Source: Tetradesmus obliquus (taxonomy: Eukaryota > Chlorophyta > Chlorophyceae > Sphaeropleales > Scenedesmaceae). Taken from it: 64,000 bases of DNA. Positions 4,136 to 62,287 of the stretch are shown here, in pieces. The stretch lies in contig CP126191.1 in assembly GCA_030272155.1 (NCBI GenBank), forward strand, positions 10,314,501 to 10,378,500, in the 5' to 3' direction. Within the stretch, counting starts at the first letter, position 1, and each line of letters starts with the position of its first letter. Made by a program: the position numbers and the translations under genes. A model generated the notes under the pieces. It was not told the DNA's origin. It did no database searches and was given only the letters and a program-made list of their open reading frames with translations.

Positions 4136-4183
<48 letters not shown>

Positions 4184-7100: not shown

Positions 7101-7690
7101 GTTGCCTGCTGCAGCACACCATGTTGCATGCGCGGTGTTCTGTTGTCTGAACCCACAGGTTTACTTTACTCAGCAACAGAGTTGTCTGTTTAGCAGGCGC
7201 TGGTCCCGGGGAGAAATATTCAAGCCCCCTTTCTGACTGGTGATCATCACTGTTGTTGGTGCTGCGTACGTTGTTTGCACCCCGGACTACACCAGGACGC
7301 CGGTTCAGCAGAAACTTGCACCCCCTACATCAAAAGCTGCCATGCATGACATGTGATGGTGGCACAAAAAATGGTGTAGTTCCAGCAATACGACGATATG
7401 ACAAAGAGCAACATGAGCATTTTGTGGTGCAAGGCATGGAGCGTGTGGGGTGATGACTGCATCCCACTTGGTCATGCAACCAATCGTACATGCCTCTGCT
7501 GTGAGATTGTACGCAGATAGTAGCAGCAACTATCTGCATCTTGATGCTACCTACTTGCCTTTGGTCAGCAGCAATGAGGCGCGTCTGAAGCTCAGGTGGC
7601 GGTTTGGATTTGTGGCAGTTGACACGCGGCTCCAGAGACTGTGGATGTCTCAGCCATCCTGCGTGCACGCAGATGTTAACATGCATGCAG
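3467..7690 (+). repeat. Left arm of a diverged palindrome
   Basis: Several blocks in this arm match the reverse complement of 8105-12180 at symmetric distances. Examples are the exon 3467-3598 with 12058-12180, 5708-5736 with 9994-10027, 6480-6620 with 9170-9310, 6970-7095 with 8700-8835, 7330-7385 with 8388-8442, and 7641-7664 with 8105-8128. Every pair after the first centres on 7866-7904. By eye the best blocks agree at about three quarters of positions, with many indels, so the duplication is old. The arm covers the last full exon and the downstream, probably 3' UTR, sequence of the left gene. Confidence 0.75.
4116..4182. repeat. GCATGCA repeat followed by a (TG)22 microsatellite
   Basis: Three GCATGCA-type units (4116-4138) run into an uninterrupted TG dinucleotide tract of about 22 units (4138-4182). 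There is no counterpart in the right palindrome arm, so it arose after the duplication. Confidence 0.95.
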
Positions 7691-7979
7691 CTGTGTTTGA
7701 ACTACGGGACCAGGATGAGCTTGGGGATGTTTCGACTGAACTTTGAGAGAGGGGCAGTCACTAATTGAGTTTGTGTTTTGAGCGTTGAGTTGAGTTTGCT
7801 TGCTGTCACCGGCTCTGAATGTAGGAGGTACCCGTGCAACTTCTGCTCTGAGGTGCATCGCCTGGCTGCTGGTTATGCTGGCAGCTGCAACCTGCCGCTT
7901 GGGTTGACCACCTGACTCCTGCACACCTAGTGCTACTGTCCAGCCCCATATTGTGGTGCAGCCATGGCCGGACATGTTT

Positions 7980-7984
7980 TGTAA
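7980..7984 (+). terminator. Candidate TGTAA polyadenylation signal, left gene
   Basis: TGTAA followed by a T-rich stretch, just past the palindrome axis. UGUAA is the usual polyadenylation signal in chlorophycean algae. If used, the left gene would have a 3' UTR of about 4.1 kb, which is long, so an earlier site is possible. Confidence 0.25.
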
Positions 7985-8067
7985 TTTTTCATATATGACT
8001 TCATCTTTCCAACTTTATCTGAGCAGGTGTCGTGGGTCATCGTCAGAGTTCAAGATGATCATATGGA

Positions 8068-8072
8068 TTACA
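8068..8072 (-). terminator. Candidate TGTAA polyadenylation signal, right gene
   Basis: TGTAA on the minus strand, 84 bases from the plus-strand motif at 7980 and on the opposite side of the axis region. The close pair of convergent motifs is suggestive, but five-base motifs are common by chance. Confidence 0.22.
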
Positions 8073-8104
8073 TTCTTCACAAACTTTGCACCGCAGTGTG
8101 TCGG

Positions 8105-11100: not shown

Positions 11101-12180
11101 ACAGGGGTGCGCGTTGCCATGCAGTCCTGTCCAAGTGTTAGATGTGTGTTGTGGAGCCTGCTATAACGTCTGCGCAATCTTGCAATCAAAGTCCAACTTC
11201 ATCAACGATGTCAGTGCACGTCCTAACATCCATCCCCAAATCACCACACTAGCAGCATGCCTCAAGGTGGATGGCGGTGCCAGCGTGCACCTACATAGTG
11301 ATGGGCGCATCAGCAGCTGTGCACAGAGCCTGTAGTGAGCACGAAGCCACTGCCCAGGGTGCACTCAGCGCTGAGGCTGCATGCTCAAGACCAGAACACA
11401 CCCATGCATGAAGCGGCATGAACAAGGCTGAAACTTCTCCAGGCGGCAAATGTATCTTTCCAGCATGCAAACCTGACTGCGCCCACAGCAGCAGCCCTCA
11501 ATGCCGTATAAAATGCTGTTGTTTGACGCAAACCTAGGCAAACGTGGCAGTAGGTACGCGGCTGTTGCCCCACGTCATCTGTGTGGTGGCATCAGGTTTC
11601 AAACTTGCTGCTGGCGCAGTGGACAGCAGCTGCTTGGAGGGGCCCCTGCTGACCTCCTCCGCTGTATCGTTAAAAGAAGAACATCCGACGACGGCCCTGC
11701 CCCTGCAAACATAGCAGTACATCACACTGTAAGCTCGACGGCACTGGGCACGGTGAACATGGCCGTAAGGCCGTGGCTGATTTGAGCAGAGCCTTTATAC
11801 AGAGCACACCTGTCAGGTTTACAGTGCAGATGCTGTACAACACAGCCATGCGCTGCATTAGCAACAACATTTGACACAATGACAACATCCCAAGCAGAGT
11901 TTCGAGCACGCATCAAGATTGTTGTGTTCAAGAGCACTTGATGTGCTGTCAAGCTGGTGCAGGTTCTTCAAGATGATGGCAAAACCTCATGTAAACATCC
12001 TGTTCTGGACGTAGAATCCTTGTGAGCATGTCAGTTGGCAGAGCCACACGTACTCACTTGAGGGCAGACTCCATTGGTGCACTGTCCAGTTGCACAGGTT
12101 CTTGTGCACGTATTACCGCAATCGTCCACGATGTCTGTGCAATCTTCATTGGGTAGTAAATCCACTTGATTTTGACAGGC
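8105..12180 (-). repeat. Right arm of the diverged palindrome
   Basis: Reverse-complement partner of 3467-7690. The clearest block is 9170-9310, whose minus strand shares a near-perfect stretch around CCGTCACACCAGTGACATG with 6572-6601. The 12058-12180 exon of the giant gene pairs with the left gene's 3467-3598 exon. Outward of this exon the arms differ, because the right gene has the exon array and the left does not. Confidence 0.75.
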
Positions 12181-12859
12181 CTGCAGCAGGTCACACATAA
12201 CAAAACAAAACCAGCTGAGACAACGCAAGTGCCAAGTAACCCAACAGTCCCGCGTGTGCCTGCACGTATACCTGCACTGAGCGGCAGGTTTGTGCAGTGA
12301 TGCCAGGCCCTGCATGATGCACTGGTGATAAGTACAGGTTACAGCTTCTGTACCGCAGTCCAGTAAGAGCACTGCAGGTGACCTGCCGCTGTTTGCCATC
12401 CCTGTATTAGCAGCAGCTTATAACCAGGCAAGCCACAACACAATGTTGCAAACCCTGCACCCTACTGGTGTCGTAAAGAGTGGGAGTGCTGCTGGATGGT
12501 GTGTGCAACCGTTGCAAACATTTCGCGATTCGTCAAGAGAAGAAGAAAAGTATACCAAGCATTACAATGCTGCATGCTATGTAAGGTTGCACAAGGTCAG
12601 CCAAAAACCTGGGTTTGACAACCTGCAACGTCGGCCATATAACAAACAGAAACGAACAGCAATTGCTGCAGAGTATGGCCCAAAAAACATGCATGGCTAC
12701 CAAACTGGCAGATATGGTTTGTAGATGCTGACTACCATCGCCCTCAGCCACTCACTTGGAAGGGACATGTGCACACATCATTTGTGCACTCGCCAACACC
12801 GCCGCACACATTGAAGAAGCTGGCGCAGGTGCCTCCGCAGCCATCATTCTTCGCCCCAC
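12031..12859 (-). other. Post-array exons: last type II module and C-terminal exon
   Basis: Exon 12859-12756 (104 bp, phase 1-0) starts exactly like an array exon (GGAKNDGCGGTC) but ends as a type II module with CTC-PFQ and donor GTGAGT. Exon 12180-12058 (41 codons, phase 0-0) holds DDCGNTCTRTCATGQC and matches the left gene's 3467-3598 exon. The donor after VCPQ is GTGAGT. Without splicing the frame stops at 12033-12031 after eight more residues. With splicing, an acceptor near 11825 would add a few residues and a TAA. Confidence 0.7.
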
Positions 12860-15800
12860 CTGCAAGCATGTTGGCGTCATGGGGCATGGCGGGCAGCACA
12901 TGCGTCGGCAGCAGACATGCGTACATGAGACACAGGAGACATGCAGTGCTGGTGATTTTTGCACATGCCGTACAGGCTGTTGGCTGCTGAACGCACAAAC
13001 AAACAGCAGCCATGCATCCTGTTGCAGCACAACAGCAAGTGCAGCTGCACCCCTGCTGTCCGCTCACCGCAAGATGCTCCAGTGGCAACAGTGTTGTTGC
13101 TTGAGCAACTTGGCGTGCATGTTACGGCTGTGCAAGTTCCAGCTTGGCACTCGTCGGTACCGCCGCACACATTGAAGAAGCTGGCGCAGGTGCTTCCGCA
13201 ACCATCATTCTTCGCCCCACCTGCAAGCATGTTGGCGTCATGGGGCATGGCGGGCAGTACATGCGTCGGCAGCAGACATGCGTACATGAGACACAGGAGA
13301 CATGCACTGATGGTGACTTTTTCACACGCCGTACAGGCTGTTGGCTGCTGAACACACAAGCAAGCAGCTGCCATGCATCCTGTTGCAGCACAACAGCAAG
13401 TGCAGCTGCACCCCTGCTGTCTGCTCACCGCAGGATGCTCCAGTGGCAACAGTGTTGTTGCTTGAGCAGCTTGGCGTGCATGTTACGGCTGTGCAAGTTC
13501 CAGCTTGGCACTCGTCGGTACCGCCGCACACATTGAAGAAGCTGGCGCAGGTGCTTCCGCAGCCATCATTCTTCGCCCCACCTGCAAGCATGTTGGCGTC
13601 ATGGGGCATGGCGGGCAGTACATGCGTCGGCAGCAGACATGCGTACATGAGACACAGGAGACATGCACTGCTGGTGATTTTTGCACATGCCGTACAGGCT
13701 GTTGGCTGCTGAACACACAAACAGACAGCAGCCATGCATCCTGTTGCAGCGCAACAGCAAGTGCAGCTGCACCCCTGCTGTCCGCTCACCGCAAGATGCT
13801 CCAGTGGCAACTGTGTTGTTGCTTAAGCAACTTGGCGTGCATGTTACGGCTGTGCAAGTTCCAGCTTGGCACTCGTCGGTACCGCCGCACACATTGTAGA
13901 AGCTGGCGCAGGTGCTTCCGCAACCATCATTCTTCGCCCCACCTGCAAGCATGTTGGCGTCATGGGGCATGGCGGGCAGTACATGCGTCGGCAGCAGACA
14001 TGCGTAAATGAGACACAGGAGACATGCACTGATGGTGACTTTTTCACACGCCGTACAGGCTGTTGGCTGCTGAACACACAAGCAAGCAGCAGCCATGCAT
14101 CCTGTTGCAGCACAACAGCAAGTGCAGCTGCACCCCTGCTGTCTGCTCACCGCAGGATGCTCCAGTGGCAACAGTGTTGTTGCTTGAGCAGCTTGGCGTG
14201 CATGTTACGGCTGTGCAAGTTCCAGCTTGGCACTCGTCGGTACCGCCGCACACATCGAAGAAGCTGGCGCAGGTGCTTCCGCAGCCATCATTCTTTGCCC
14301 CACCTGCAAGCATGTTGGCGTCATGGGGCATGGCGGGCAGCACATGCGTCGGCAGCAGACATGCGTACATGAGACACATGAGACATGCACTGCTGGTGAT
14401 TTTTGCATATGCCGTACAGGCTGTTGGCTGCTGAACACACAAACAAACAGCAGCCATGCATCCTGTTGCAGCACAACAGCAAGTGCAGCTGCACCCCTGC
14501 TGTCCGCTCACCGCAAGATGCTCCAGTGGCAACTGTGTTGTTGCTTGAGCAACTTGGCGTGCATGTTACGGCTGTGCAAGTTCCAGCTTGGCACTCGTCG
14601 GTACCGCCGCACACATTGAAGAAGCTGGCGCAGGTGCTTCCGCAGCCATCATTCTTTGCCCCACCTGCAAGCACGTTGGCGTCATGGGGCATGGCGGGCA
14701 GAACATGCGTTAGCAGCAGACATGCGTTCACGAGACACAGGAGACATGCACTGCTAGTGATTTTTGCACACGCCGTACATGCTGTTGGCCGCTGAACACA
14801 CAAACAAGCAGCAGCCATGCATCCTGTTGCAGCGCAACAGCAAGTGCAGCTGCATCCCTGCTGTCCGCTCACCGCAGGATGCTCCAGTGGCAACTGTGTT
14901 GTTGCTAGTGCAATCTGGGGTGCAGGCTGTGCAAGTTCCAGCTTGGCACTCGTCGGTACCGCCGCACACATTGAAGAAGCTGGCGCAGGTGCTTCCGCAG
15001 CCATCATTCTTCGCCCCACCTGCAAGCACGTTGGCGTCATGGGGCATGGCGGGCAGAACATGCGTTAGCAGCAGACATGCGTTCACGAGACACAGGAGAC
15101 ATGCACTGCTAGTGATTTTTGCACACGCCGTACATGCTGTTGGCCGCTGAACACACAAACAAGCAGCAGCCATGCATCCTGTTGCAGCGCAACAGCAAGT
15201 GCAGCTGCATCCCTGCTGTCCGCTCACCGCAGGATGCTCCAGTGGCAACTGTGTTGTTGCTAGTGCAATCTGGGGTGCAGGCTGTGCAAGTTCCAGCTTG
15301 GCACTCGTCGGTACCGCCGCACACATTGAAGAAGCTGGCGCAGGTGCTTCCGCAGCCATCATTCTTCGCCCCACCTGCAAGCATGTTGGCGTCATGGGGC
15401 ATGGTGGGCAGTACATGCGTTAGCAGCAGACATGCGTTCACGAGACACAGGAGACATGCACTGCTAGTGATTTTTGCACACGCCGTACATGCTGTTGGCC
15501 GCTGAACACACAAACAAGCAGCAGCCATGCATCCTGTTGCAGCGCAACAGCAAGTGCAGCTGCATCCCTGCTGTCCGCTCACCGCAGGATGCTCCAGTGG
15601 CAACTGTGTTGTTGCTTGAGCAACTTGGCGTGCATGTTACGGCTGTGCAAGTTCCAGCTTGGCACTCGTCGGTACCGCCGCACACATTGAAGAAGCTGGC
15701 GCAGGTGCTTCCGCAGCCATCATTCTTCGCCCCACCTGCAAGCATGTTGGCGTCATGGGGCATGGTGGGCAGTACATGCGTTAGCAGCAGACATGCGTTC

Positions 15801-18800
15801 ACGAGACACAGGAGACATGCACTGCTAGTGATTTTTGCACACGCCGTACATGCTGTTGGCTGCTGAACACACAAACAAGCAGCAGCCATGCATCCTGTTG
15901 CAGCGCAACAGCAAGTGCAGCTGCATCCCTGCTGTCCGCTCACCGCAGGATGCTCCAGTGGCAACTGTGTTGTTGCTTGAGCAACTTGGCGTGCATGTTA
16001 CGGCTGTGCAAGTTCCAGCTTGGCACTCGTCGGTACCGCCGCACACATTGAAGAAGCTGGCGCAGGTGCTTCCGCAGCCATCATTCTTCGCCCCACCTGC
16101 AAGCATGTTGGCGTCATGGGGCATGGCGGGCAGCACATGCGTACATGAGACACAGGAGACATGCACTGCTGGTGATTTTTGCACATGCCGTACAGGCTGT
16201 TGGCTGCTGAACACACAAACAAGCAACAGCCATGCATCCTGTTGCAGCACAACAGCAAGTGCAGCTGCACCCCTGCTGTCCGCTCACCGCAAGATGCTCC
16301 AGTGGCAACTGTGTTGTTGCTTGAGCAACTTGGCGTGCATGTTACGGCTGTGCAAGTTCCAGCTTGGCACTCGTCGGTACCGCCGCACACATTGAAGAAG
16401 CTGGCGCAGGTGCTTCCGCAGCCATCATTCTTTGCCCCACCTGCAAGCACGTTGGCGTCATGGGGCATGGCGGGCAGTACATGCGTTAGCAGCAGACATG
16501 CGTTCACGAGACACATGAGACATGCACTGCTGGTGATTTTTGCACACGCCGTACAGGCTGTTGGCTGCGGAACACACAAACAAGCAGCAGCCATGCATAC
16601 TGTTGCAGCACAACAGCAAGTGCAGCTGCACCCCTGCTGTCTGCTCACCGCAGGATGCTCCAGTGGCAACAGTGTTGTTGCTTGAGCAGCTTGGCGTGCA
16701 TGTTACGGCTGTGCAAGTTCCAGCTTGGCACTCGTCGGTACCGCCGCACACATTGAAGAAGCTGGCGCAGGTGCTTCCGCAGCCATCATTCTTCGCCCCA
16801 CCTGCAAGCATGTTGGCGTCATGGGGCATGGCGGGCAGTACATGCGTCGGCAGCAGACATGCGTACATGAGACACATGAGACATGCTCTGCTGGTGATTT
16901 TTGCACACGCCGTACATGCTGTTGGCCGCTGAACACACAAACAAACAGCAGCCATGCATCCTGTTGCAGGACAACAGCAAGTGCAGCTGCACCCCCGCTG
17001 TCCGCTCACCGCAGGATGCTCCAGTGGCAACTGTGTTGTTGCTGGAGCAGCTTGGCGTGCATGTTACGGCTGTGCAAGTTCCAGCCTGGCACTCGTCGGT
17101 ACCGCCGCACACATTGAAGAAGCTGGCGCAGGTGCTTCCGCAGCCATCATTCTTCGCCCCACCTGCAAGCACGTTGGCGTCATGGGGCATGGCGGGCAGT
17201 ACATGCGTCGGCAGCAGACATGCATTCACGAGACACAGGAGACATGCACTGCTAGTGATTTGCACACGCCGTACATGCTGTTGGCCGCTGAACACACAAA
17301 CAAGCAGCAGCCATGCATCCTGTTGCAGCACAACAGCAAGTGCAGCTGCACCCCCCTGTCCGCTCACCGCAGGATGCTCCAGTGGCAACTGTGTTGTTGC
17401 TAGTGCAATCTGGGGTGCAGGCTGTGCAAGTTCCAGCTTGGCACTCGTCGGTACCGCCGCACACATTGAAGAAGCTGGCGCAGGTGCTTCCGCAGCCATC
17501 ATTCTTCGCCCCACCTGCAAGCATGTTGGCGTCATGGGGCATGGTGGGCAGTACATGCGTTAGCAACAGACATGCGTTCACGAGACACAGGAGACATGCA
17601 CTGCTAGTGATTTTTGCACACGCCGTACAGGCTGTTGGCCGCTGAACACACAAACAAGCAGCAGCCATGCATCCTGTTGCAGCGCAACAGCAAGTGCAGC
17701 TGCATCCCTGCTGTCCGCTCACCGCAGGATGCTCCAGTGGCAACTGTGTTGTTGCTTGAGCAACTTGGCGTGCATGTTACGGCTGTGCAAGTTCCAGCTT
17801 GGCACTCGTCGGTACCGCCGCACACATTGAAGAAGCTGGCGCAGGTGCTTCCGCAGCCATCATTCTTCGCCCCACCTGCAAGCACGTTGGCGTCATGGGG
17901 CATGGCGGGCAGAACATGTGTTAGCAGCAGACATGCGTTCACGAGACACAGGAGACATGCACTGCTAGTGATTTTTGCACACGCCGTACATGCTGTTGGC
18001 CGCTGAACACACAAACAAGCAGCAGCCATGCATCCTGTTGCAGCGCAACAGCAAGTGCAGCTGCATCCCTGCTGTCCGCTCACCGCAAGATGCTCCAGTG
18101 GCAACTGTGTTGTTGCTAGTGCAATCTGGGGTGCAGGCTGTGCAAGTTCCAGCTTGGCACTCGTCGGTACCGCCACACACATTGAAGAAGCTGGCGCAGG
18201 TGCTTCCGCAGCCATCATTCTTCGCCCCACCTGCAAGCATGTTGGCGTCATGGGGCATGGCGGGCAGTACATGCGTTAGCAACAGACATGCATTCACGAG
18301 ACACAGGAGACATGCACTGCTAGTGATTTTTGCACACGCCGTACATGCTGTTGGCCGCTGAACACACAAACAAGCAGCAGCCATGCATCCTGTTGCAGCG
18401 CAACAGCAAGTGCAGCTGCATCCCTGCTGTCCGCTCACCGCAGGATGCTCCAGTGGCAACTGTGTTGTTGCTTGAGCAGCTTGGCGTGCATGTTACGGCT
18501 GTGCAAGTTCCAGCTTGGCACTCGTCGGTACCGCCGCACACATTGAAGAAGCTGGCGCAGGTGCTTCCGCAGCCATCATTCTTCGCCCCACCTGCAAGCA
18601 TGTTGGCGTCATGGGGCATGGCGGGCAGCACATGCGTACATGAGACACAGGAGACATGCACTGCTGGTGATTTTTGCACATGCCGTACAGGCTGTTGGCT
18701 GCTGAACACACAAACAAGCAACAGCCATGCATCCTGTTGCAGCACAACAGCAAGTGCAGCTGCACCCCTGCTGTCCGCTCACCGCAAGATGCTCCAGTGG

Positions 18801-21800
18801 CAACTGTGTTGTTGCTTGAGCAACTTGGCGTGCATGTTACGGCTGTGCAAGTTCCAGCTTGGCACTCGTCGGTACCGCCACACACATTGAAGAAGCTGGC
18901 GCAGGTGCTTCCGCAGCCATCATTCTTCGCCCCACCTGCAAGCACGTTGGCGTCATGGGGCATGGCGGGCAGTACATGCGTCGGCAGCAGACATGCGTTC
19001 ACGAGACACAGGAGACATGCACTGCTAGTGCTTTTTGCACACGCCGTACATGCTGTTGGCCGCTGAACACACAAACAAGCAGCAGCCATGCATCCTGTTG
19101 CAGCACAACAGCAAGTGCAGCTGCACCCCTGCTGTCCGCTCACCGCAAGATGCTCCAGTGGCAACTGTGTTGTTGCTTAAGCAACTTGGCGTGCATGTTA
19201 CGGCTGTGCAAGTTCCAGCTTGGCACTCGTCAGTACCGCCGCACACATTGAAGAAGCTGGCGCAGGTGCTTCCGCAGCCATCATTCTTCGCCCCACCTGC
19301 AAGCACGTTGGCGTCATGGGGCATGGCGGGCAGTACATGCGTCGGCAGCAGACATGCAATCACGAGACACAGAAGACATGCACTGCTATTGATTTTTGCA
19401 CACGCTGTACAGGCTGTTGGCTGCTGAACACACAAACAAGCAGTAGCCATGCATCCTGTTGCAGCACAACAGCAAGTGCAGCTGCACCCCTGCTGTCTGC
19501 TCACCGCAGGATGCTCCAGTGGCAACAGTGTTGTTGCTTGAGCAGCTTGGCGTGCATGTTACGGCTGTGCAAGTTCCAGCTTGGCACTCATCGGTACCGC
19601 CGCACACATTGAAGAAGCTGGCGCAGGTGCTTCCGCAGCCATCATTCTTCGCCCCACCTGCAAGCATGTTGGCGTCATGGGGCATGGCGGGCAGAACATG
19701 CGTCGGCAGCAGACATGCGTACATGAGACACATGAGACATGCACTGCTGGTGATTTTTGCACACGCCGTACAGGCTGTTGGCTGCGGAACACACAAGCAA
19801 GCAGCAGCCATGCATACTGTTGCAGCACAACAGCAAGTGCAGCTGCACCCCTGCTGTCTGCTCACCGCAGGATGCTCCAGTGGCAACAGTGTTGTTGCTT
19901 GAGCAGCTTGGCGTGCATGTTACGGCTGTGCAAGTTCCAGCTTGGCACTCGTCGGTACCGCCGCACACATTGAAGAAGCTGGCGCAGGTGCTTCCGCAGC
20001 CATCATTCTTCGCCCCACCTGCAAGCATGTTGGCGTCATGGGGCATGGCGGGCAGCACATGCGTCGGCAGCAGACATGCGTACATGAGACACATGAGACA
20101 TGCTCTGCTGGTGATTTTTGCACACGCCGTACATGCTGTTGGCCGCTGAACACACAAACAAACAGCAGCCATGCATCCTGTTGCAGGACAACAGCAAGTG
20201 CAGCTGCACCCCCGCTGTCCGCTCACCGCAGGATGCTCCAGTGGCAACTGTGTTGTTGCTGGAGCAGCTTGGCGTGCATGTTACGGCTGTGCAAGTTCCA
20301 GCCTGGCACTCGTCGGTACCGCCGCACACATTGAAGAAGCTGGCGCAGGTGCTTCCGCAGCCATCATTCTTCGCCCCACCTGCAAGCATGTTGGCGTCAT
20401 GGGGCATGGTGGGCAGTACATGCGTGAGCAGCAGACATGCATTCACGAGACACAGGAGACATGCACTGCTAGTGATTTGCACACGCCGTACATGCTGTTG
20501 GCCGCTGAACACACAAACAAGCAGCAGCCATGCATCCTGTTGCAGCACAACAGCAAGTGCAGCTGCACCCCCCCTGTCCGCTCACCGCAGGATGCTCCAG
20601 TGGCAACTGTATGGTTGATAGTGCAATCTGGGGTGCAGGCTGTGCAAGTTCCAGCTTGGCACTCGTCGGGACCGCCACACACATTGAAGAAGCTGGCGCA
20701 GGTGCTTCCGCAGCCATCATTCTTCGCCCCACCTGCAAGCATGTTGGCGTCATGGGGCATGGTGGGCAGTACATGCGTTAGCAACAGACATGCGTTCACG
20801 AGACACAGGAGACATGCACTGCTAGTGATTTTTGCACACGCCGTACATGCTGTTGGCCGCTGAACACACAAACAAGCAGCAGCCATGCATCCTGTTGCAG
20901 CGCAACAGCAAGTGCAGCTGCATCCCTGCTGTCCGCTCACCGCAGGATGCTCCAGTGGCAACTGTGTTGTTGCTTGAGCAGCTTGGCGTGCATGTTACGG
21001 CTGTGCAAGTTCCAGCTTGGCACTCGTCGGTACCGCCGCACACATTGAAGAAGCTGGCGCAGGTGCTTCCGCAGCCATCATTCTTCGCCCCACCTGCAAG
21101 CATGTTGGCGTCATGGGGCATGGCGGGCAGCACATGCGTACATGAGACACAGGAGACATGCACTGCTGGTGATTTTTGCACATGCCGTACAGGCTGTTGG
21201 CTGCTGAACACACAAACAAGCAACAGCCATGCATCCTGTTGCAGCACAACAGCAAGTGCAGCTGCACCCCTGCTGTCCGCTCACCGCAAGATGCTCCAGT
21301 GGCAACTGTGTTGTTGCTTGAGCAACTTGGCGTGCATGTTACGGCTGTGCAAGTTCCAGCTTGGCACTCGTCGGTACCGCCACACACATTGAAGAAGCTG
21401 GCGCAGGTGCTTCCGCAGCCATCATTCTTCGCCCCACCTGCAAGCACGTTGGCGTCATGGGGCATGGCGGGCAGTACATGCGTCGGCAGCAGACATGCGT
21501 TCACGAGACACAGGAGACATGCACTGCTAGTGATTTTTGCACACGCCGTACATGCTGTTGGCCGCTGAACACACAAACAAGCAGCAGCCATGCATCCTGT
21601 TGCAGCACAACAGCAAGTGCAGCTGCACCCCTGCTGTCCGCTCACCGCAAGATGCTCCAGTGGCAACTGTGTTGTTGCTTAAGCAACTTGGCGTGCATGT
21701 TACGGCTGTGCAAGTTCCAGCTTGGCACTCGTCAGTACCGCCGCACACATTGAAGAAGCTGGCGCAGGTGCTTCCGCAGCCATCATTCTTCGCCCCACCT

Positions 21801-36800: not shown

Positions 36801-39800
36801 CGCCGCACACATTGAAGAAGCTGGCGCAGGTGCTTCCGCAGCCATCATTCTTCGCCCCACCTGCAAGCATGTTGGCGTCATGGGGCATGGTGGGCAGTAC
36901 ATGCGTTAGCAGCAGACATGCGTTCACGAGACACAGGAGACATGCACTGCTAGTGATTTTTGCACACGCCGTACATGCTGTTGGCCGCTGAACACACAAA
37001 CAAGCAGCAGCCATGCATCCTGTTGCAGGACAACAGCAAGTGCAGCTGCACCCCCGCTGTCCGCTCACCGCAGGATGCTCCAGTGGCAACTGTGTTGTTG
37101 CTTGAGCAACTTGGCGTGCATGTTACGGCTGTGCAAGTTCCAGCTTGGCACTCGTCGGTACCGCCGCACACATTGAAGAAGCTGGCGCAGGTGCTTCCGC
37201 AGCCATCATTCTTCGCCCCACCTGCAAGCACGTTGGCGTCATGGGGCATGGCGGGCAGTACATGCGTCGGCAGCAGACATGCGTACATGAGACACATGAG
37301 ACATGCACTGATGGTGACTTTTTCACACGCCGTACAGGCTGTTGGCTGCTGAACACACAAACAAGCAGCAGCCATGCATCCTGTTGCAGCACAACAGCAA
37401 GTGCAGCTGCACCCCTGCTGTGCGCTCACCGCAAGATGCTCCAGTGGCAACTGTGTTGTTGCTTGAGCAACTTGGCGTGCATGTTACGGCTGTGCAAGTT
37501 CCAGCTTGGCACTCGTCGGTACCGCCGCACACATTGAAGAAGCTGGCGCAGGTGCTTCCGCAACCATCATTCTTCGCCCCACCTGCAAGCATGTTGGCGT
37601 CATGGGGCATGGCAGGCAGTACATGCGTCAGCAGCAGACATGCGTACATGAGACACAGGAGACATGCACTGCTGGTGACTTTTTCACACGCCGTACAGGC
37701 TGTTGGCTGCTGAACACACAAACAAGCAGCAGCCATGCATCCTGTTGCAGCACAACAGCAAGTGCAGCTGCACCCCCGCTGTCCGCTCACCGCAGGATGC
37801 TCCAGTGGCAACTGTGTTGTTGCTTGAGCAACTTGGCGTGCATGTTACGGCTGTGCAAGTTCCAGCTTGGCACTCGTCGGTACCGCCGCACACATTGAAG
37901 AAGCTGGCGCAGGTGCTTCCGCAGCCATCATTCTTCGCCCCACCTGCAAGCATGTTGGCGTCATGGGGCATGGCGAGCAGTACATGCGTCGGCAGCAGAC
38001 ATGCGTACATGAGACACAGGAGACATGCACTGCTGGTGACTTTTTCACACGCCGTACAGGCTGTTGGCTGCTGAACACACAAACAAGCAGCAGCCATGCA
38101 TCCTGTTGCAGCACAACAGCAAGTGCAGCTGCACCCCTGCTGTCCGCTCACCGCAGGATGCTCCAGTGGCAACTGTGTTGTTGCTAGTGCAGCTGGCCTG
38201 CAGCAGCATGCAGCGCAGAAGATTGGTGGTCTTGTTCGCTGTCTCAACAAACTCCCACATGGCACATACATCACATGACATACAACACATTACAGACACT
38301 CATTGCAATTGTTGAACTTTTGGTTTACATATTAGAGCACGAGACCAGAGCAGGGGTCGCCCGGCAGTGATGCGTCATGTGGTGATACTACCTAAGTGAC
38401 AAAAGCCTGATCGCGCTGACAGCATGTTGCAAATCATTGCCAGCCAACATGGCTGCATAATGTAGCATGTGTCAGCACTGTCAACATGCATATGTTTTTG
38501 AGTCAGGTTGGACCCAGAAACATGCACAAGATGTGTAATGCTTGCCAAACAAAGGTAGGATACATTTCAAGAAAAGGGCTGTTTCTTTTGGCGGCACGCC
38601 GTGTTATGCAGTGAACAATACAGCCTCAAGGCCATGGTGGTCTGCACCATCTCGTGGAGGTGGGTGTCAGATAAGCTTCATGCTGTCACGTTATATGGCC
38701 ACCAACGTTTGTTCTGGAGGAAGTGCAACAAACACGCGTGTTGTTCTAAAGGAAGTGCAACTATGAAGGAGGGCAACTATCACACTTCTGTTACAACTGC
38801 AACAACCCCATAACAAGGATGAAGAAATGTTAGGGAAAATGGTTCCGACAAACTCAATCAGAGCAGCAGGTTCTGCCGCATGTCCTGGCTGCACCAGACA
38901 TCGGTGTCGGTTGACGGCTTCTTTAGTTGTGCATCTGGTAGTAGCAATGGCCGCTCTGCTGTAGTCAACTGTGGTGCCATAGTGCTGTAGTCAACTGTGG
39001 CGCCATAGTGCTGTAGTCAACTGTGGCGCCATAGTGACTCACCGTGCAGTTGCTTGTAGAAATCGCAGTGCAAACGTTAGCGACGCATGAATCCACAGTG
39101 GAGTTGCACGCGCGCTGGCAGTTGCCTCCACAGCCATTAGCTTGAGTATTGCCTGCAGAGGAAAGGGAAGCCGCGATGCAAAAATATGGATAACAGCTGG
39201 CAACAACTTGGCCACCTTTTTCTTGCACATCGTTACCGCAACATAGCTAGGATGCTGCTCATTTCACACCCAAATAAAGTCAGCCAGTAGCAAAAACAGC
39301 TTCACGGCAGCCGCTCAACTACATGCCGTCTGGTGGGTTCTAATGGCTGAACCAGACTGACACGCTGTAATCAGAAATGAAGAGCGCTAGGTACAGCGGG
39401 CATCCTGCGCGCAAAGTAAACCCTGCACCAGGTGCTGTCCAACGCATGCTGACACAGCTGCCATTCTTACAGTTATGCAACTGTTAAGCAGGAGCTCAGG
39501 GCATGTGCAAAGCAGGTGTTCCCACATAGATGAAAATGCAGACGCATTGGCTGCGGTCTGTGAAAGTGGGCCTTGATGCCTTGTTGCAACATTGAATACG
39601 TACCATGGAGATCCGGTCATGCCTGGTGACTGTTTGACTGGTTGTTGACTAGTCAACTTTTCAGCACAAACACCAGAGCGAAACGTACATCGTGGGTACG
39701 TCTGCGGGCAGCTGCTGCTGTTGCTTTGCCGGAGAGCTTCACTCACCGCATGACTGGTTGCGGCCGACAATGACAACACCAGAGCAGGTTGGGCTGCAGC

Positions 39801-42800
39801 ATGTGCCAGCATTGCAGGTCACGCCAGCAGCGCATGTCCTGGTGCACGTTGATCCACAGCCGTTCTGCATACAGAGTGCACAGCAGCAGCAGGCTTAGGT
39901 TAGCCACAAGATCAAACTCCACGCTCAGTCCCCAACCTTGTTGCATTAGGCCTTCAGATGGTGTAAGGCTTGCAACCGGCGATTTCTTCTGTGATCGCAA
40001 GTGAGCGCAAGTGCAGTGCAGTGGCTCTGTGCAGTTGCCATGCTAAGCGAGCGTGCCTTGCAGATGGGCAGCCCAGCATGACATGTGCTGCTAACATTTT
40101 GAGCTCCAACATGGTGGCCACCAGCCAATGGCACTTCAACATTAGGCTTGCAAACACGCTGCTTTAGTTTTGGCTTTGCTTTCCAACATCTGCAGTGCGC
40201 TCCGTGCTATTCCATCTGGTAGCCAACTGAAGTGAACTGCAATATGATGACACGCTAGATGCTGTTGAACCTAGCTCATGACCGCGTCACGAGCAGTAGG
40301 TGGTTGTACTGTTCATTTGCTGCCAACTGCTGGACCTTGCCTTAGAAGCTGCTGCCCGAACCTTCTGGCTACTCATTTGCGACAACATGCTATCTGTTGG
40401 TGTGGTTTGCACTTAGAGAAAGCTGTCGGTGAGGTGGGGTGCCGCTGCGCACAGCAGTAAGAACGTCTCTGGATATAACATGAGAGATATGGTGTTCAAG
40501 GGTGTGCATTGTGTTCTACGGTGCTCACTCTCCTTTTCTGGTCTCAGACCTTGTGTTCAACCTGTTGTGGCTCATACCATCTAAGATGGTGCCCGGACCC
40601 ACATGACGCTACCCTCTCTCAAATATGTGGTGGCATTAACAACCTCATGCAACAGCAATGCTGGCGTGTCATAGATGTCTTGGACTGATGAGAGTGCCTT
40701 CCATGCCCATCAAGTTGCAATGATGAGCTCAACTGCATAAATTCGCAGCTATCTGATGTGGAGGCTTAATTAGGATACGGCTCACCGATATGTCTCCACA
40801 AGCAGCTCCAGCGGCAAGGGCTGAGGTACCTGCAAATTGAAAGAGAGGGCAGCACACCATGGAGTCATGTTGCAGACCATCATGTCACAACTTGGAAACA
40901 GCAGCATTGGCACTTGCAACCATAAAATATGCCAGGTGCCTCTGAAGCTGTATGTGTGCATGCTGCACCATGCATGCACATTGTGGTTTGGCTGCCACCC
41001 AAGAAACTATCCAGCAGGGAAGCCAGCCCAAAACTCAGCTACCCAAAGCTCTGAATGCAGAAAATACAAGGCGTAATACACATGCACAGCACTTCTGCGC
41101 ATGTGCTGTCAGCGATTGATGCCTGTGCACCGCCGTGAACGCTGAGTGGCAGCTCAGCCTGAGTTAGCACTTACTCTGGCATGTTGGGGAGCAGACGGCG
41201 CAGACGTTGTTCTGGCAGGTCAGCTGCTGGGTGGCAGATGAACAGGTCGTCGTGCATGTGCCGCTGCAACCTGCACACGGAGCAGCAGCCAAGTGATTGT
41301 CATGTAGCGCTTTGTCCTGAATGCCATGTTGGTGTTGAGCTCATCGATCATGAGCTGCCAGTCATTGCAGAGTAGACCTCGTCCACTGTAAGCGCATTCA
41401 CAGCATAGACTGCCTTTGAAGAGAAAACACATGTTTTTTTGAGTGAGCTATTGCATGCAAGGCTTGCACTGCAGATGGCTTGACACTCTGTGGATTTGTT
41501 ACTTGCTGTGCTGATTCCTGCTTCTCTTTGAGGACTGTGGCAGCAGCACAGCAGGCCCCTGCTTGCAGCTCACCGTTGCTTCTAGGTGCGCATGATGCAC
41601 CAACCACTGCAGTGGTAGTATCTGTGCATGTTGGCTGTGAGCGCGACAAATGGCAGCATTGAACACCACAGCCGCACAAGTGCCAGAGTCAGTTTCCAGG
41701 TGGTGGTGTTGGGTGTAGAGAGCATGAACCCATGCAGGCACACACACAGCTGTGCTGGTAGCGTGGACAGAACCACATGTAGCTTGCACAGTAGCTGAGT
41801 TTCGTGGGCTGCAAATGCACACCGTTCTCAAGAAAGATCATGATGCGTGCTGGATTTGGTGTTGGAGCAGCAGCGTCTGTGCGTGGTGCAACACGGCTGT
41901 CAAAAGCTTGAGCTATTCCCATGCATGTGGAGTGGCTGGGCCATGCAGCGCACACAGCAGCACAATGCAGCAGGCCTAAACCAAGCCCTCACTGCTCTGT
42001 AGAGCCTGGCTAGGCCACACTCACCACACAAGGCGCAGGGCTGGGTGGATCGCTGGGTGGTGGTTGCGGTGGAGGGCTGCAGCATGCGCACACACCACGC
42101 GTTCAGTCAGTGGCCTGCTGCTGTGCAATTGGGCAGCAAACTCTACATATCTACACTGGAAGACGCTTCTGTAGAACGCTGTGCGGTGTGCTGCGAGAGC
42201 GGCAACATTAGATTCCCATTCTAATGATACGCATGCAGTGCTGACAACGAGCTTCAATGCTTTGTCACTGGCATTACTTGGGGTCGGTTGGTGGGGGAGT
42301 GACGGGTGGGGGCGAAGGGGTCGTGGGTGGGGGGGAGGGGGTGGTGGGTGGGGGAGAGGGGTTGGCAGGTGGAGGGGACGGACTGGCAACCGTAGGTGGA
42401 GGGCTTGGCGAGCTCGTAGGCGGTGGGCTCGGCGAATTGGCGGGCGGGGGGCTTGGTGAACTGGTGGGTGGTGGGCTTGGCGAGCTAGCCTGCATGCGTA
42501 TGCAGCAGCATAATATATGCATTTGTACAAGTATGTTTGCTAGCAATGGCAGTTGAGCGGTGCTGCATGCTTTGCTGGAGCAGGTGAAGCAGGCAACCAC
42601 CCGTCCTTTTGTACAGAACATATGTTCTGCAGCAGCAGCCGCAAAGCACAGATACCGCCTCACCGCAGTGCAGCAGATGGCGCGTGCAGCAGCGCTATCC
42701 TTCACCATTCCGTTGATTGCGCCGCTCGGGTTGGGGGCAGTGCCGCTTGCACAGGCAGGCGTCCAGTCGCTGGCGCATGTTGCTGAAGCACCGTAGATGG

Positions 42801-45800
42801 CGCTGCAGCAGGTTGTCTTTGCTGCATCTGGAGTCTGACCTGCAATGCTGATGCTTGACGCACCATCCTTTTCCTTAAAGCCTGAACCGCACACAATTTT
42901 CTGGCCGGCACCGTTGCTGTTTGTGCATGTCGCGCCTGCAGGGTACGACGCGCTACAGCTGCCAGTGGTTGTGATGGCCCAGTTTGCGGTGTTTGTAGTG
43001 CCAACTCGGTTGCATGTGGCGCTGGTGGCTGTCCCCTCTCCAATGCACTTTGCTGTGCAGGTCGAGCCGATTGTGATTGCGCAGTTGGTTAGCCAGTTGG
43101 CGTTGGCAACGTTGGTCTGCGGAACACCAATGCAGCGGACTGCAAGGCGGGCAGCACAGTGGGATGGGTTGTGATGTAAGGGGCTTGGCAGGATGCTTAG
43201 TGCCTGCAACAGTAATGCACGGTTTGCGCTTGCGACCTCAAACTGCTGTTGTCGACTCACGCCACAGGTTGACAAGGCCCCCACTCTGTTGCAGTGCTAC
43301 AATGGTACAACAAGACACAGCGGCACTGTGCCATTAGGACAATCAACTCATGAATGATGCTTGAAACCAGTGCAACTTGGAGGTGAGCCTGCGATTGACT
43401 GGGGTGTTGCCACATTGCTGACACAGCAAAGGTGGCAGCCAAGGAGAGCCAATGACCACCGCAGAGAGCATGCGTGCATGTACTGATCCCCACAACCCTG
43501 GGGGCTGCAAACATGTGCTACAAACACGGACCAAGTGCCAGCCGACGGCACCCAAGTGGTTGTTGAGCAACATAATCCGTAACTTACTTGGTGCGCAGGT
43601 GCCTGATGGCTCCGACCATGCGCCCTTCAGGTTGTCACACACAGAGGAAACAGTACCAGAGGTAGCGCCTGTGCAGGTGGCAGTGCAGCTTGTCTGGTTG
43701 TTGCAGCCGCCAGCCGGCCATGATGCCCCCTCTGGTGTCGTGCCTGGAACGCCTGTGCATCCCTTTGTAGCTGCAGGTGGCAGCAGTTGCACAGCAGGGC
43801 GGAAGTTGCTTGGTGGCAGCACTGGCGGGTGGCGGCAGGTGAACAGCTCTTGCAGAAAGAGCATAGGCATCCGACAACACAGCACCATGACGGTCAAATG
43901 CAAGCATTCTTGTCTACAGCATGACATGGATGCAACACACAAAGGCCATAGGAATTGTCTTCTGGAAGCAGTCTTACGCAACCACTGTGCGGAACCCATT
44001 GCTAAACTTCAGTCAAGAGAACCAGCCAGCAGCAGAATATCACTCCAAAACTTTGCACTTACGCTGTTGTGTTGCAGGACAGGAAGCGCCAGCTGCAAGC
44101 GTCCAGGTGCCTTCCTTGGTGCAAGTGGCAGACACGGTGCCTCCGGTTGAGCAGGAGGCAACACAGACATAGCCTGGGTCTGCTGCTGGGCATTGCCACG
44201 TGGCACTGGTGACAGAAGGTGGCTGGCCGGGGCAGTTCTTGGCCTCAGAGCCGCCTGCAGGGACAACAAACACACACCAGCAGGGCGTGGTTTACAAACA
44301 GCTCCTCAACAACGTAACGGCTACATGTTAGCGGCTGCGTCTGCAAGTGCAAGGAACTTGTGTCGCACGGGCTTTGCCCGTTAAGCAGCCAGGACGCGAT
44401 ATGTACAGTAACGAATCTGCAAAAGGGTTGCTGCTACAGAGAACATGTGGCTCTGGCTCTACAGCAGCTGCCAAACCAGCTGGAGCAAGGGACTTCCTGC
44501 AAGCAATACATAACATCACATTACATTACATTACATTACATTACAAGCATGATGCAATGGTGGACAGCACCGCACTGAACCTCAGCGCTGCTGTTCCCTG
44601 CAATACTATGGCCTGGCAGAGAGCTATTTGACACCAAGCTATCCTTCTTCAAATTGAGAGAGGCTAGTTGCATGTGGTTACTTGACACCAACCTGTGATG
44701 GCACTCGTGTTGGTCACGGTGACGTCAAACACCGCGGAGAGGCCCTGCTGCGCGATGGCCTCCTGCACCTTCTGCACCAGCTGCTGCGCATCCCCACTGG
44801 ACAGGTCCTTGTTCATGATTGCTAGCACCGTGTCAAGGCTGGCACCAGCAGGCAAGGACTCGCTGGGGTTGCCTGTCACGGCCTGGTACACAGCACGGGT
44901 GGCTGCTTGGATCTGTTCGGTTGACTGGACAAGGGGCGAGACTGTGATGGACAGCGTGACGACGTTGGTTGCTAGCAGGTGGCGCCTTACGAAGGCGATG
45001 GTGTGTGCGAGCAGGTGACGCCTTGCTCTGCTGGACGGCTGCGTGTGGGTTGCAGGGGACAGCAGGCAGCAGCAGAGCCGTAAGACAGAGGCGACAGTAG
45101 CAGCAAACATTGAGAGAGGATAGTTACATGTGGGTCCTGGCACCATCTTGGATGGTATGAGCCACAACAGGTTGATCACATTGGTGGGTGGTTGACAGGG
45201 GCACCAGCAGCGGCAGCATGGCACCCACCATGCCCTGCGTGGCAGCAGAGAGGGATGAGCGTATCTCTGGTGCACACAGGGCACTACGTGCGAGCTCGCT
45301 GTATTGAACTTTCTTGCTATGCCAAAACAACGCTGGACAAAGCTCACAAATCAGGCTGAGCATGCAGATGGCCTGCAGCTGAACACAGAACAGCCTGAAT
45401 GAAGCAACGTTGTGCCGCTTGCAGCACACCGCACGTGCCTGAGCTCGGCATGAGTGCAAGCTTTTCTATTCCACTAGATTACACTCACTTTGCAGTCGGC
45501 CACCCCCACATACACCAGCGCGGCCTTGGCAGGGTCCATGCCGTTTGTGACCTGCGCCTTCAGCCCATCGGCCAGCGCCTGCACAGTGTTTTTGTTGCAT
45601 GACGAGGAGCCCACAGGCACGTTGACCACAGGGGCCTTGATGATAGGAGGGGTGGGAGGAGGGCTTGGGCTGGGAGAGGGGTTGGGTTTGGGGCTGGGAG
45701 AGGCGTTGGGTTTGGGGCTGGGTGACGGGCTGGGCTTGGGCTTGGGCACACATGGAGCAGCGTACTCCACCCACATGGTGCCACCAGGGAAGAACATGTT

Positions 45801-47110
45801 GGTGCGGGTGCCGTCTGCAAGTGTACGGCAGAGCCCAGCCACACAGCAGCGGAGGCAGTTGGGCGTTTGCGTGACCGTCAATAAGAAGGTGGTCGACACT
45901 TTCACTTGCATGCACCAGGGTCTTACAGTGCAGCACCAGCATGCAGCCCAAAATGCGCAGGACACCACGCAGCAGTTGTGCATTGTGCATCAGCAGCACT
46001 CACTGTTCTGCGACACCTTCAACTTGTGCTTGGCAAACAGGGCAGCAACGTTCTTGTACAGGCCCGTGTTGTAGCCGCCTGTGCAGAGCTTGGCGGCACC
46101 TGGGGAGCCAACAGCAGTCCACATGTCGTCCCTGACTTTGTTGTCAGTGGTGCTGTTGAAGCGCACACCCACTCTGAAGGAGGCGTAATTGATTTTCTTG
46201 TACTGTGGTGGGTGTTGCAAGCGATGCGTGCGGCAGCAGCAGGTGGCGCAGCAGTGGTTAGGCATGACACGTTTTGCTCCAGAGTGTATGAGTGAGTAAG
46301 TTAGGGGCTATCCAGGTCACTCTGCAGCTGCTGCGCATGTGAAAGGCTGCAGACAGTGTGTGTGGCTAGGGTCAGCGCCCATGGGCTCCATACCCGCTGC
46401 ATGCCCGCTCGCACCGTAGGGTGGTCCCAATGAGGCAGTCAAGCGCGTGACACAGCAGGCAGTGTGATGAAGATGCTGCTCACGCCACCCGATCAGCTGC
46501 AGCTAGCTGGCAAGCAGGTGGGGGTCAGTGACCAAGCGTGATGCTCTTCTGTACAGAAGCTGCAGCCTGTTGAAGCTTTCGTGCCTCAGGTAGCTCAGGC
46601 TGGCTTAGCCTGACCAGGCCAGGCCTTCCCTGGCAGCTAGATGCGCACTGCAGCGCTATCCGGTGAAAACAGAGCAGCGCTGTGATAACAAACACTAGCA
46701 GCAGCAGCAGCAGCAGCGGCAGCAAGCTGTGCACAGCACGAGCATCAACCCCAAGGGTGTGGCAGTAGCGCATGGGCCAGTCTCACCGTGATGTCCCTGC
46801 AGGGCTGGCGCACAGCCACAACAGTTTTGGCCGCTGCAGGCCAGCCCGCAGACGTCAGGGCATCCTTGAAGTCGTTTGTGACGGCTTTTGCCAGGGTGTT
46901 GTTGAAGTCCTTGTCCCTGGCAGTGGCATACACGCTGGTGCAGGTCACTCCCTGCAGCGCCCAGCTGGCCTGAACAAACTGCTGCCTGTTCAGGGCAATG
47001 GGGGCCAGGAGGTTCCGGGTGAAAGGTGGAATGGTGTCGCGCGTGCCAGCAGCCAGCTGGACTGCCATTAGGCAGGCCAGCAGTGACGGCAGCAGCAGGG
47101 GTCGCATCAT
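12031..47110 (-). CDS. Giant secreted cysteine-rich repeat glycoprotein, about 87 exons
   Basis: Exons from 5' to 3' are 47110-46787, 46202-46004, 45814-45489, 45038-44693, 44254-44063, 43770-43588, 43139-42664, 42489-42278, 42076-42025, 41634-41574, 41270-41175, 40829-40786, 39864-39747, 39152-39043 and 38197-38152, then 70 array exons (37943 down to 13068), 12859-12756 and 12180-12058. Phases match at every junction and the total is divisible by three, giving about 4,550 residues. Residues 1-22 look like a signal peptide. Then come an unrecognised N-terminal region, a KPSPSP rod, sushi-like modules, an SPSPPP rod, mixed cysteine modules, and 70 repeats with eight cysteines and one N-glycosylation sequon each. 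Transcription runs toward the left gene. The end is either a stop at 12033-12031 by reading through the last donor, or a further tiny exon near 11810. The first three exons could be a separate gene. The donor at 44692 (GTTGGT) is weak. I infer a wall or matrix glycoprotein; the function is unknown. Confidence 0.65.
20833..24155 (-). repeat. Higher-order block A inside the array (4,303-bp offset)
   Basis: Nine successive units here correspond one to one with 25136-28458 at an offset of exactly 4,303 bp. The order of unit variants is the same: 344-bp unit, four ordinary units, two units with AGGACAACAG-type introns and a 147-bp exon. The left boundary is set where the partner lacks TTT in the intron (gattttt versus gattt). 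Confidence 0.8.
25136..28458 (-). repeat. Higher-order block B inside the array (copy of block A)
   Basis: Partner of 20833-24155. Translations of the overlapping frames agree along the block. The copies part near 28459, where this copy carries a GCCCGCTCAC variant absent from block A. Confidence 0.8.
26700..30342 (-). repeat. Tandem duplication of five units (1,797-bp offset)
   Basis: Units with edges 27032, 27393, 27752, 28107 and 28468 reappear at 28829, 29190, 29549, 29904 and 30265. The GCCCGCTCAC variant occurs only in the 28468 and 30265 units, so this duplication is younger than the 4,303-bp one. Beyond it, units 24526-25244 match 30626-31344 at 6,100 bp, the sum of the two offsets. 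Confidence 0.78.
33600..35731 (-). repeat. Tandem duplication of three units (1,066-bp offset)
   Basis: Units 33861, 34205 and 34566 match 34927, 35271 and 35632. The pattern 361+344+361 is copied, including a rare intron change that replaces gccgctgaac with gccgatgaac in the first unit of each copy. Outer boundaries are approximate. Confidence 0.78.
38959..39036. repeat. 26-bp minisatellite, three copies, at a splice donor
   Basis: Three head-to-tail copies of a 26-bp unit containing the palindrome TGGCGCCA, the first with one substitution. It abuts the donor of the 39152-39043 exon. Confidence 0.92.
40556..40621 (+). repeat. Dispersed 65-bp repeat, copy 1
   Basis: A stretch including TGTGGCTCATACCATCTAAG and ACCCTCTCTCAA lies in an intron of the giant gene. 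Its reverse complement occurs at 45109-45173. Confidence 0.7.
42025..43139 (-). other. Exons 7-9: large cysteine-rich domain and SPSPPP rod
   Basis: Exon 7 (43139-42664, 476 bp, phase 1-0) encodes about 158 residues with two ANW-x-C/ANWAI elements and two CC pairs (TTCCSA, AICCTA). These two halves look like an internal duplication. Exon 8 (42489-42278, 212 bp) is almost pure SPSPPPT/SPSPPPAN repeats, an extensin-like rod likely to be hydroxylated and glycosylated. Exon 9 (42076-42025, 52 bp) continues the proline run and ends PSPAPCV. The donor after the rod is GTAATG in phase 2, and exon 9 restores phase 0. The rod probably separates the N-terminal modules from the repeat tail. Confidence 0.7.
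43588..45038 (-). other. Exons 4-6: alpha-helical segment and two sushi-like cysteine modules
   Basis: Exon 4 (45038-44693) begins after a pyrimidine-rich tract and ACGCAG. It encodes arginine-rich RRHLLA motifs and then a hydrophobic/polar region (VVTLSITVSPLVQ, a predicted helix around DAQQLVQKVQEAIAQQ). Exon 5 (44254-44063, phase 1-1) has the order C-P-x-P, W-x-C, Y-x-C-x2-SC, GG-x3-A-x-C, G-x-W, GASC, which resembles a sushi/CCP module. Exon 6 (43770-43588, phase 1-1) repeats the scheme with GC-x5-T, CNNQTSC, C-x-G and GAWSEPSGTC. The two phase 1-1 exons look like duplicated modules. Sushi modules usually bind proteins or carbohydrate; that role here is inference. An ATG at 45110 upstream of exon 4 offers an alternative gene start. 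Confidence 0.6.
44518..44545. repeat. ACATT microsatellite
   Basis: About five and a half pentamer units in an intron of the giant gene, the same repeat as at 1097-1119. Confidence 0.9.
45109..45173 (-). repeat. Dispersed 65-bp repeat, copy 2 (inverted)
   Basis: Inverted partner of 40556-40621, by eye about 85% identical. One end (TTGAGAGAGG-x-TAGTT-x-CATGTG) recurs at 44655-44678, so at least three partial copies lie in this gene. It may be a small mobile element relic; no terminal inverted repeats were seen. Confidence 0.6.
45489..47110 (-). other. Exons 1-3: signal peptide, novel N-terminal domain, KPSPSP rod
   Basis: The chosen start is the first of two adjacent ATGs (47110). It is followed by a hydrophobic leucine/alanine stretch ending VQLAAG, a clear signal peptide. 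Exon 1 (324 bp) has the paired cysteines VTC and QPC. Exon 2 (199 bp) includes YKKINYASFRVGVRF and an N-S-T sequon. Exon 3 (326 bp) reads FFPGGTMWVEYAAPC and then a serine/proline/lysine rod (KPSPSPSPKP type) typical of algal hydroxyproline-rich glycoproteins. It closes with a globular part around SSSCNKNTVQALADGLKAQ ending VADCK. Splice phases are 0-0, 0-1 and 1-0. The pattern rod plus flanking globular cysteine domains resembles pherophorin-type matrix proteins, but I cannot match the globular parts to the pherophorin domain. The following donor is a good GTGAGT. Confidence 0.75.

Positions 47111-62246: not shown

Positions 62247-62287
<41 letters not shown>

Follow-up and report, generated by a model that had tools for sequence, protein, structure and literature searches.

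We describe a giant gene in a stretch of 64,000 nucleotides from the green alga Tetradesmus obliquus (contig CP126191.1, positions 10,314,501 to 10,378,500), referred to below as the window. The gene is built mainly from 70 near-identical tandem exons, a proposal of an earlier sequence-only reading that our analysis supports. The exons share one phase and an open frame, their peptide is constrained among the copies, exact repeat blocks occur in the array, and related genes in the same genome carry no array. We consider it likely that this is a real coding gene whose array arose via in-register duplication, and that its product is a secreted glycoprotein of some 4,550 residues, most likely a long strand of the cell wall or extracellular matrix that is stiffened by disulphides.

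Exons in the window were read by the rule TTGCAG ... GTGAGC, which gave 74 stretches. Seventy of these form the array on the minus strand, and the other four lie elsewhere in the window without the array peptide. The array consists of 60 exons of 153 base pairs (bp) and 10 of 147 bp, each encoding eight cysteines. All 70 are in phase 1-1 and keep intact splice sites, CTTGCAG before and GTGAGC after; every length is divisible by three and no copy contains a stop. Tandem Repeats Finder reports a single array at 12798–38185, with a period of 361 and 70.8 copies. Because the introns differ in length (208 bp in 52, 206 in 10, 191 in six, 207 in one and 205 in one), most units recur at a distance of 361 bp and some at distances down to 344 bp. 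Because the period, mostly 361, is not divisible by three, the plus-strand frames are interrupted across the array. Antisense coding was considered and rejected; the longest listed plus-strand frame overlapping 36800–38300 has 249 codons. Intron 14, beside the array, contains a 26-bp tandem repeat of 3.1 copies (38957–39036).

Fifteen upstream and two downstream exons were placed by hand on the basis of splice signals and phase (Table 1). Exons 1–15, the array and exons 86–87 can be joined in silico in phase, giving 13,662 bp, or 4,554 codons, with no stop; splicing of the whole gene is predicted from the sequence. The product would contain 633 cysteines, 560 of them in the array. The sequence-only reading had claimed exactly these array exons with their splice signals, flanking exons of fitting phase at both ends, the lack of stops and frameshifts in any copy, and a product of about 4,550 residues with about 560 array cysteines, and all of this was borne out; it had named no strand.

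To describe constraint on the array, variants were counted once each rather than per copy. The 60 exons of 153 bp contain 18 variants, of which 14 are synonymous on 35.7 sites and four are non-synonymous on 111 (binomial P = 2.8e-6). The pairwise means of synonymous and non-synonymous difference (pS and pN) across the array are 0.074 and 0.0028, a ratio of 0.038. Third codon positions are variable at 14/51 sites and introns at 52/208 (P 0.72), whereas first and second codon positions vary at only 4/102, unlike the introns (P 1.3e-6). The introns themselves show no clear three-base periodicity (15/70, 15/69 and 22/69 variable). Several insertions or deletions occur in introns, and the exons show one 6-bp difference, which is in frame. 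At the peptide level, the 70 exons encode nine distinct sequences, 52 of the 70 are identical, and one N-glycosylation sequon is present in every copy.

The splice region seems to be held by constraint as well. The last 30 intron columns, including the acceptor, contain one variable position, against 51 in the other 178 columns (P 0.0023), a boundary picked after the data had been seen; a further 17 consecutive columns without variation are found near the intron 5' end. The sequence-only reading had deduced selection from the missing stops. Selection itself stands, shown by the contrast between synonymous and non-synonymous variants together with the constrained splice region. The stop argument fails: at the intron rate of variation 1.33 stop variants are expected and the chance of none is 0.26, so the lack of stops is uninformative, and we rejected it as proof of selection.

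The order of the units, each an exon with its following intron, points to the way in which the array may have grown. Fifty of the 70 units are distinct. Units 28–35 equal units 40–47 exactly, and the first four of each block equal units 23–26, giving repeated blocks of eight and four; exact internal repeats reach a maximum length of at least 3.2 kilobases (kb) but less than 4 kb. Unequal exchange or in-register duplication of blocks could account for this pattern. Whole units can be gained or lost without a change of frame, since both ends of each array exon are in phase 1.

A probable source of the unit lies beside the array. Exons 14 and 15 joined share 28 identical residues with an array unit over 48 aligned. 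With the cysteines fixed, none of 1,000 shuffles reaches this score, and one of 1,000 does so without the last 13 residues. Because of this resemblance, the unit was probably born from that pair through loss of the intermediate intron. The reverse order, in which intron gain split a unit into exons 14 and 15, is also conceivable. Introns 15 and 85 differ from the intron consensus at eight and 10 positions, respectively, and inner introns at one to 11. Decay toward the edges of the array was considered and set aside, as mean intron differences of 8.4, 7.0 and 8.2 for the first 10, middle 50 and last 10 are too small a contrast to tell. In the growth that we propose, a single local unit, probably a fusion of exons 14 and 15, would have been duplicated in register, singly and in blocks. 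Selection would retain the peptide and the splice signals, and synonymous and most intron sites would drift.

We searched the genome assembly (104.66 Mb in 17 contigs) with the unit protein and with an exact 26-base pattern covering the acceptor and exon start. The protein gave 74 matches at an expectation value (E) up to 0.1, and 71 of them fall in the giant gene (70 units and exon 86). The remaining three are weak (E 0.0014 to 0.05), two in genes A and C described below and one on contig 10, where a motif scan of 3 kb of the plus strand revealed no unit. All 67 hits of the pattern are inside the giant gene, 66 in the array and one at exon 86. Thus neither search found a second array in the genome. 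Two other proteins encoded in this assembly were compared with PDB entries. Its plastocyanin is closest to 2plt, which is from Chlamydomonas, and to 7zqe. One exon of its D1 protease matches 1fc6, which is from Scenedesmus obliquus, at 62 of 62 residues, and a hand-joined stretch of 240 residues shows a single difference away from the joins. The genome is accordingly that of Tetradesmus (Scenedesmus) obliquus or of a very close relative.

On the other hand, the head and the middle modules both find relatives, four of them on the same chromosome (C1). These were read from coding-strand matches to the exon peptides other than 8 and 9 at E below 0.02, with the best hit kept where several overlapped, and their units were counted by a core motif. 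Gene A starts at C1:10305314 and runs tail to tail with the giant gene into the first 3.6 kb of the window. It has the same exon order, with exons 1–7 65–87% identical, and carries 12 diverged units but no array; its pS to the giant gene is 0.29 over the gap-free matches of exons 2, 4, 6 and 13. Genes B (C1:10255907 down) and C (C1:10240367 down) have four units each. Gene D (C1:10412164 down) has exons 3–7 and a Pro-Ser repeat, with no unit recognised beyond them in 10 kb. Similar N-termini, proline-serine linkers and cysteine modules recur in the relatives. Four units may be the old state, with the 12 in A and about 75 in the giant gene as later gains. Away from this chromosome, contig 3 carries a relative that is similar in its head and in which a long run of SPSPSP, within a 658-codon frame, takes the place of units; further head or module matches lie on contigs 5, 6, 8, 10, 11 and 16.

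We notice two other features of the family. A further internal array, a long Pro-Ser repeat of about 22 residues (SPSPSPSPDAGSATGGSSSGDA) that stays in frame, is found in a related gene at about C1:10406040–10408890. In the neighbour gene A, two unit exons on the plus strand, at about 1982 and 2975 of the window, seem to be followed by GC donors (GCAAG); their counterpart in the giant gene, exon 86, has a GT donor.

The relatives also bear on the 3' end of the coding sequence. The sequence-only reading had placed the gene at 12031..47110. The start codon at 47110 fits our gene model, and the end does not: the stop at 12031 is probably read-through, because reaching it means passing the donor at 12058, whose GT is kept in all four related genes. 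After the last cysteine exon, in phase 0, the four read GTGAGT (giant gene), GTAAGT (A), GTACGG (B) and GTGCGC (C), with less typical bases following the GT in two of them. Downstream, the giant gene and A share a 98-base block, 88% alike, with an acceptor that leads in phase 0 to PQR-stop and AQR-stop, respectively. We take the predicted last exon at 11376–11365 as the probable end of coding. Between the two tail-to-tail genes lies a degenerate palindrome of about 7 kb (4174–7378 and 8392–11404). Eleven of the 14 inverted pairs listed there, the 98-base block among them, are arranged mirror-wise about a centre near 7.8–7.9 kb.

The predicted product has a mass of 436 kDa without sugars, an isoelectric point (pI) of 4.2 and 80 N-glycosylation motifs, including one per unit in the 70 units. 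Its most hydrophobic 19-residue stretch begins at residue 5, with nothing as strong elsewhere, and a similar start is present in four genes, which suggests a putative signal peptide. SP/SPPP-rich segments in exons 3, 8 and 9 are joined to other modules.

The Pfam scan covered exons 1–7, a joined piece of units and 14 single units, with the Pro-rich exons 8 and 9 left out. For exons 1–7 and the joined piece, nothing above cut-off was found at E up to 10, a range in which the HMMER filters remove most matches above E 0.1. The 14 units at E up to 1 gave only Cmyb_C (0.11) and EB (0.14). Within these ranges, neither pherophorin, EGF, hevein nor potato type II inhibitor matched. NCBIfam, scanned with exons 1–4 and the unit piece, likewise yielded nothing above cut-off; all matches in the two libraries are far below cut-off or to the Pro-Ser stretch. 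PDB gave no match by sequence and one chance match by profile (E 1.4). A bacterial and archaeal collection searched with the unit returned 224 pattern-matching stretches, none of them confirmed. The sequence-only reading had recognised no family for the product, which is true of the parts scanned in Pfam, NCBIfam and PDB but not of the genome itself, which holds relatives.

A strand of the wall or matrix is the likeliest role, because of the SPPP linkers and such relatives. The product would begin with a head domain, followed by proline-serine (hydroxyproline-type) linkers and a few diverged cysteine modules, and would continue as a rod of 70 nearly identical 8-cysteine modules with one N-glycosylation motif each. 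Its transcript would be spliced through all units, and the protein would be secreted, glycosylated and disulphide-bonded, with a mechanical role in the wall.

The 70 modules might instead be cut into identical small disulphide-rich peptides that act as inhibitors or antimicrobials, much like the multi-domain potato type II proteinase inhibitors, which are tandem 8-cysteine modules of about 50 residues. The giant gene product shares this layout, with near-identical 8-cysteine units of 49–51 residues in a secreted-type protein, and an array kept for dosage would need identical peptides. However, no Pfam match to these inhibitors was found, none of the 14 units matched any family above cut-off, and no processing sites were recognised. 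A unit has one lysine and no arginine and therefore no dibasic site. The relatives' units are few, diverged and placed beside proline-rich linkers. We regard such a polyprotein as unlikely.

It is quite unlikely that the array is satellite-like, in a gene no longer or never spliced through, with open exons as a relic of recent copying. The array is indeed young, with a mean synonymous difference of 0.074 inside against 0.29 to the neighbour gene, and zero stops would be expected by chance. Nevertheless, peptide and splice region are constrained among the copies themselves. An assembly artefact, with a very different real copy number, has a similarly small probability in our judgement. Exact internal repeats of at least 3.2 kb could favour it, but 50 of the 70 units are distinct, they stand in a definite order with unique diverged exons at the borders, and no exact repeat reaches 4 kb. 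An artefact would alter the number of copies and not their nature.

Extracellular binding of metal or calcium, with capacity set by length, is another conceivable purpose for an array so rich in cysteines and acidic residues. The 560 cysteines in 70 modules and the predicted pI of the whole product agree with it. Cysteines in secreted proteins are normally paired, and much of the framework is common to relatives with only four to 12 units; we hold this purpose to be improbable. A Dscam-like choice array for mutually exclusive splicing is hardly credible: its tandem exons would likewise share one phase, but the diverse alternative exons it calls for are not seen among nine peptides in 70 exons, and choice is not needed, as skipping or keeping all exons preserves the frame.

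Several points weigh against the secreted wall or matrix strand that we prefer. Hydrophobicity is what points to the putative signal peptide, and the rod shape and wall location are drawn from composition and relatives. The copy number comes from a single assembly. The ten 147-bp exons, taken by themselves, have four synonymous and three non-synonymous variants, which gives no contrast. The exact last-exon motif was not found in 1.5 kb after the last unit of B, nor in 0.6 kb after that of C, a stretch too short to judge. Below the cut-off, Pfam gives Trypan_PARP (0.011) and Tail_completion_gp17 (0.02) for exons 1–7 and the joined piece, and NCBIfam gives internalin_K at 3.3e-5 (22.5 bits, cut-off 1100) and five weaker matches.

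As a tentative idea, which we think has less than an even chance, the array may be a coding variable number tandem repeat (VNTR) in a unicellular alga, in which the number of frame-neutral exons would vary from strain to strain and determine how long a giant wall strand is. If true, it would offer an untapped natural system for selection on coding-array copies, with a built-in control in the tail-to-tail sister gene that never expanded this way. In any case, 70 replicates of exon and intron in one locus allow protein constraint, splicing constraint and lack of constraint to be read together, and the array-free sister gene alongside serves for comparison. In addition, the locus draws attention to a protein family in a cultivated alga for which the libraries searched gave no match above cut-off. 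The product may be a wall component overlooked by ordinary proteomics: digestion of the array with trypsin would release peptides of 49 or 51 residues with eight cysteines and a glycosylation motif, and most would be the same, 52 of the 70 units being identical. With eight alkylated cysteines, and leaving sugars and deamidation aside, the array peptide has a calculated mass of 5,271.04 Da at 51 residues or 5,112.93 Da at 49.

Table 1. Features of the giant gene and its surroundings, in window positions.
Feature	Position	Strand	Description
Exon 1	46787..47110	-	ATG, signal-peptide-like N-terminus, start of conserved head; 77% / 63% identity in relatives A / B
Exon 2	46004..46202	-	Head domain
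Exon 3	45489..45814	-	Contains Pro/Ser-rich linker (SPSPSPKP)
Exon 4	44693..45038	-	
Exon 5	44063..44254	-	Cysteine module
Exon 6	43588..43770	-	Cysteine module
Exon 7	42664..43139	-	Cysteine module
Exon 8	42278..42489	-	Hydroxyproline-rich-type linker, SPSPPP repeats
Exon 9	42025..42076	-	Pro-rich
Exon 10	41574..41634	-	Diverged cysteine unit, first half
Exon 11	41175..41270	-	Diverged cysteine unit
Exon 12	40786..40829	-	Part of diverged cysteine unit
Exon 13	39747..39864	-	Diverged cysteine unit
Exon 14	39043..39152	-	Diverged cysteine unit; with exon 15, probable source of array exon
Exon 15	38152..38197	-	Almost equal to 3' end of array exon
Exons 16–85 (array)	13068..37943	-	70 near-identical exons, introns 191–208 bp
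Exon 86	12756..12859	-	Array-like first part, diverged second part
Exon 87	12058..12180	-	Diverged last cysteine unit; donor at its end, GT at matching place in 4/4 genes
Predicted coding end (PQR, stop) after acceptor	11365..11376	-	Counterpart in neighbour at 4202–4213 (AQR, stop)
Last cysteine units of tail-to-tail neighbour gene, no array	3..3601	+	Gene start outside window
Degenerate inverted repeat between the two genes	4174..11404	.	Arms about 4174–7378 and 8392–11404

Beyond the 5' side of the giant gene, an open frame on the minus strand at 51207–51386 encodes a PHD finger above the Pfam cut-off and belongs to an ordinary gene. A run of 12 CTG triplets at 62249–62284 encodes polyglutamine in a 284-codon minus-strand frame, for which Pfam gives nothing at E up to 0.01. 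Scans of the window with Rfam (gathering scores) and for tRNA gave no match.

Coding arrays of tandem whole exons are a known kind, as the excerpt of a paper on human LPA indicates: kringle IV type 2 is present in up to 40 repeats, with two exons (160 and 182 bp) per unit, and makes up to 70% of the coding sequence (PMC11201333). LPA and the giant gene are alike in having near-identical tandem whole exons with introns, a preserved frame and an array that forms most of the coding sequence. As expected of an LPA-like array, the giant gene has tandem exon-plus-intron units with symmetric phase, and blocks of these units are repeated exactly. They differ in that the LPA unit is 5.6 kb with two exons and encodes a kringle domain, whereas the unit here is 0.36 kb with one exon and encodes an unnamed 8-cysteine module. 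The copy number of LPA varies among individuals, whereas the giant gene is known from one assembly. MUC16 is a second example of this kind.

Long chimeric extensins are ascribed to green algae in the part of a 2023 review that treats them (PMC10762512). The giant gene product resembles these in its secreted-type N-terminus and its SPPP-type linkers joined to other modules. Unlike them, it is dominated by the cysteine array, and its hydroxyproline and wall location are putative. For the maternal cell wall of Scenedesmus obliquus, excerpts of one study report matches to two hypothetical proteins that bear EGF-type signatures and come from a Scenedesmus database; a table row appears to list their lengths as 2,214 and 741 residues (PMC11839794). 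On these excerpts the two may or may not belong to the giant gene's family; Pfam gives no EGF family for our 14 units at E up to 1. The excerpted genome paper of a self-flocculating strain indicates GPI (glycosylphosphatidylinositol)-anchored and fasciclin-type wall proteins instead (PMC7590803). Among the titles and abstract openings listed in searches of the open literature, no earlier report of the array gene was found, nor any paper on a chromosome-level assembly of this species. What is apparently new here is the combination of one exon per unit, 70 copies, an algal host, a module without a match above cut-off and an array-free sister gene.

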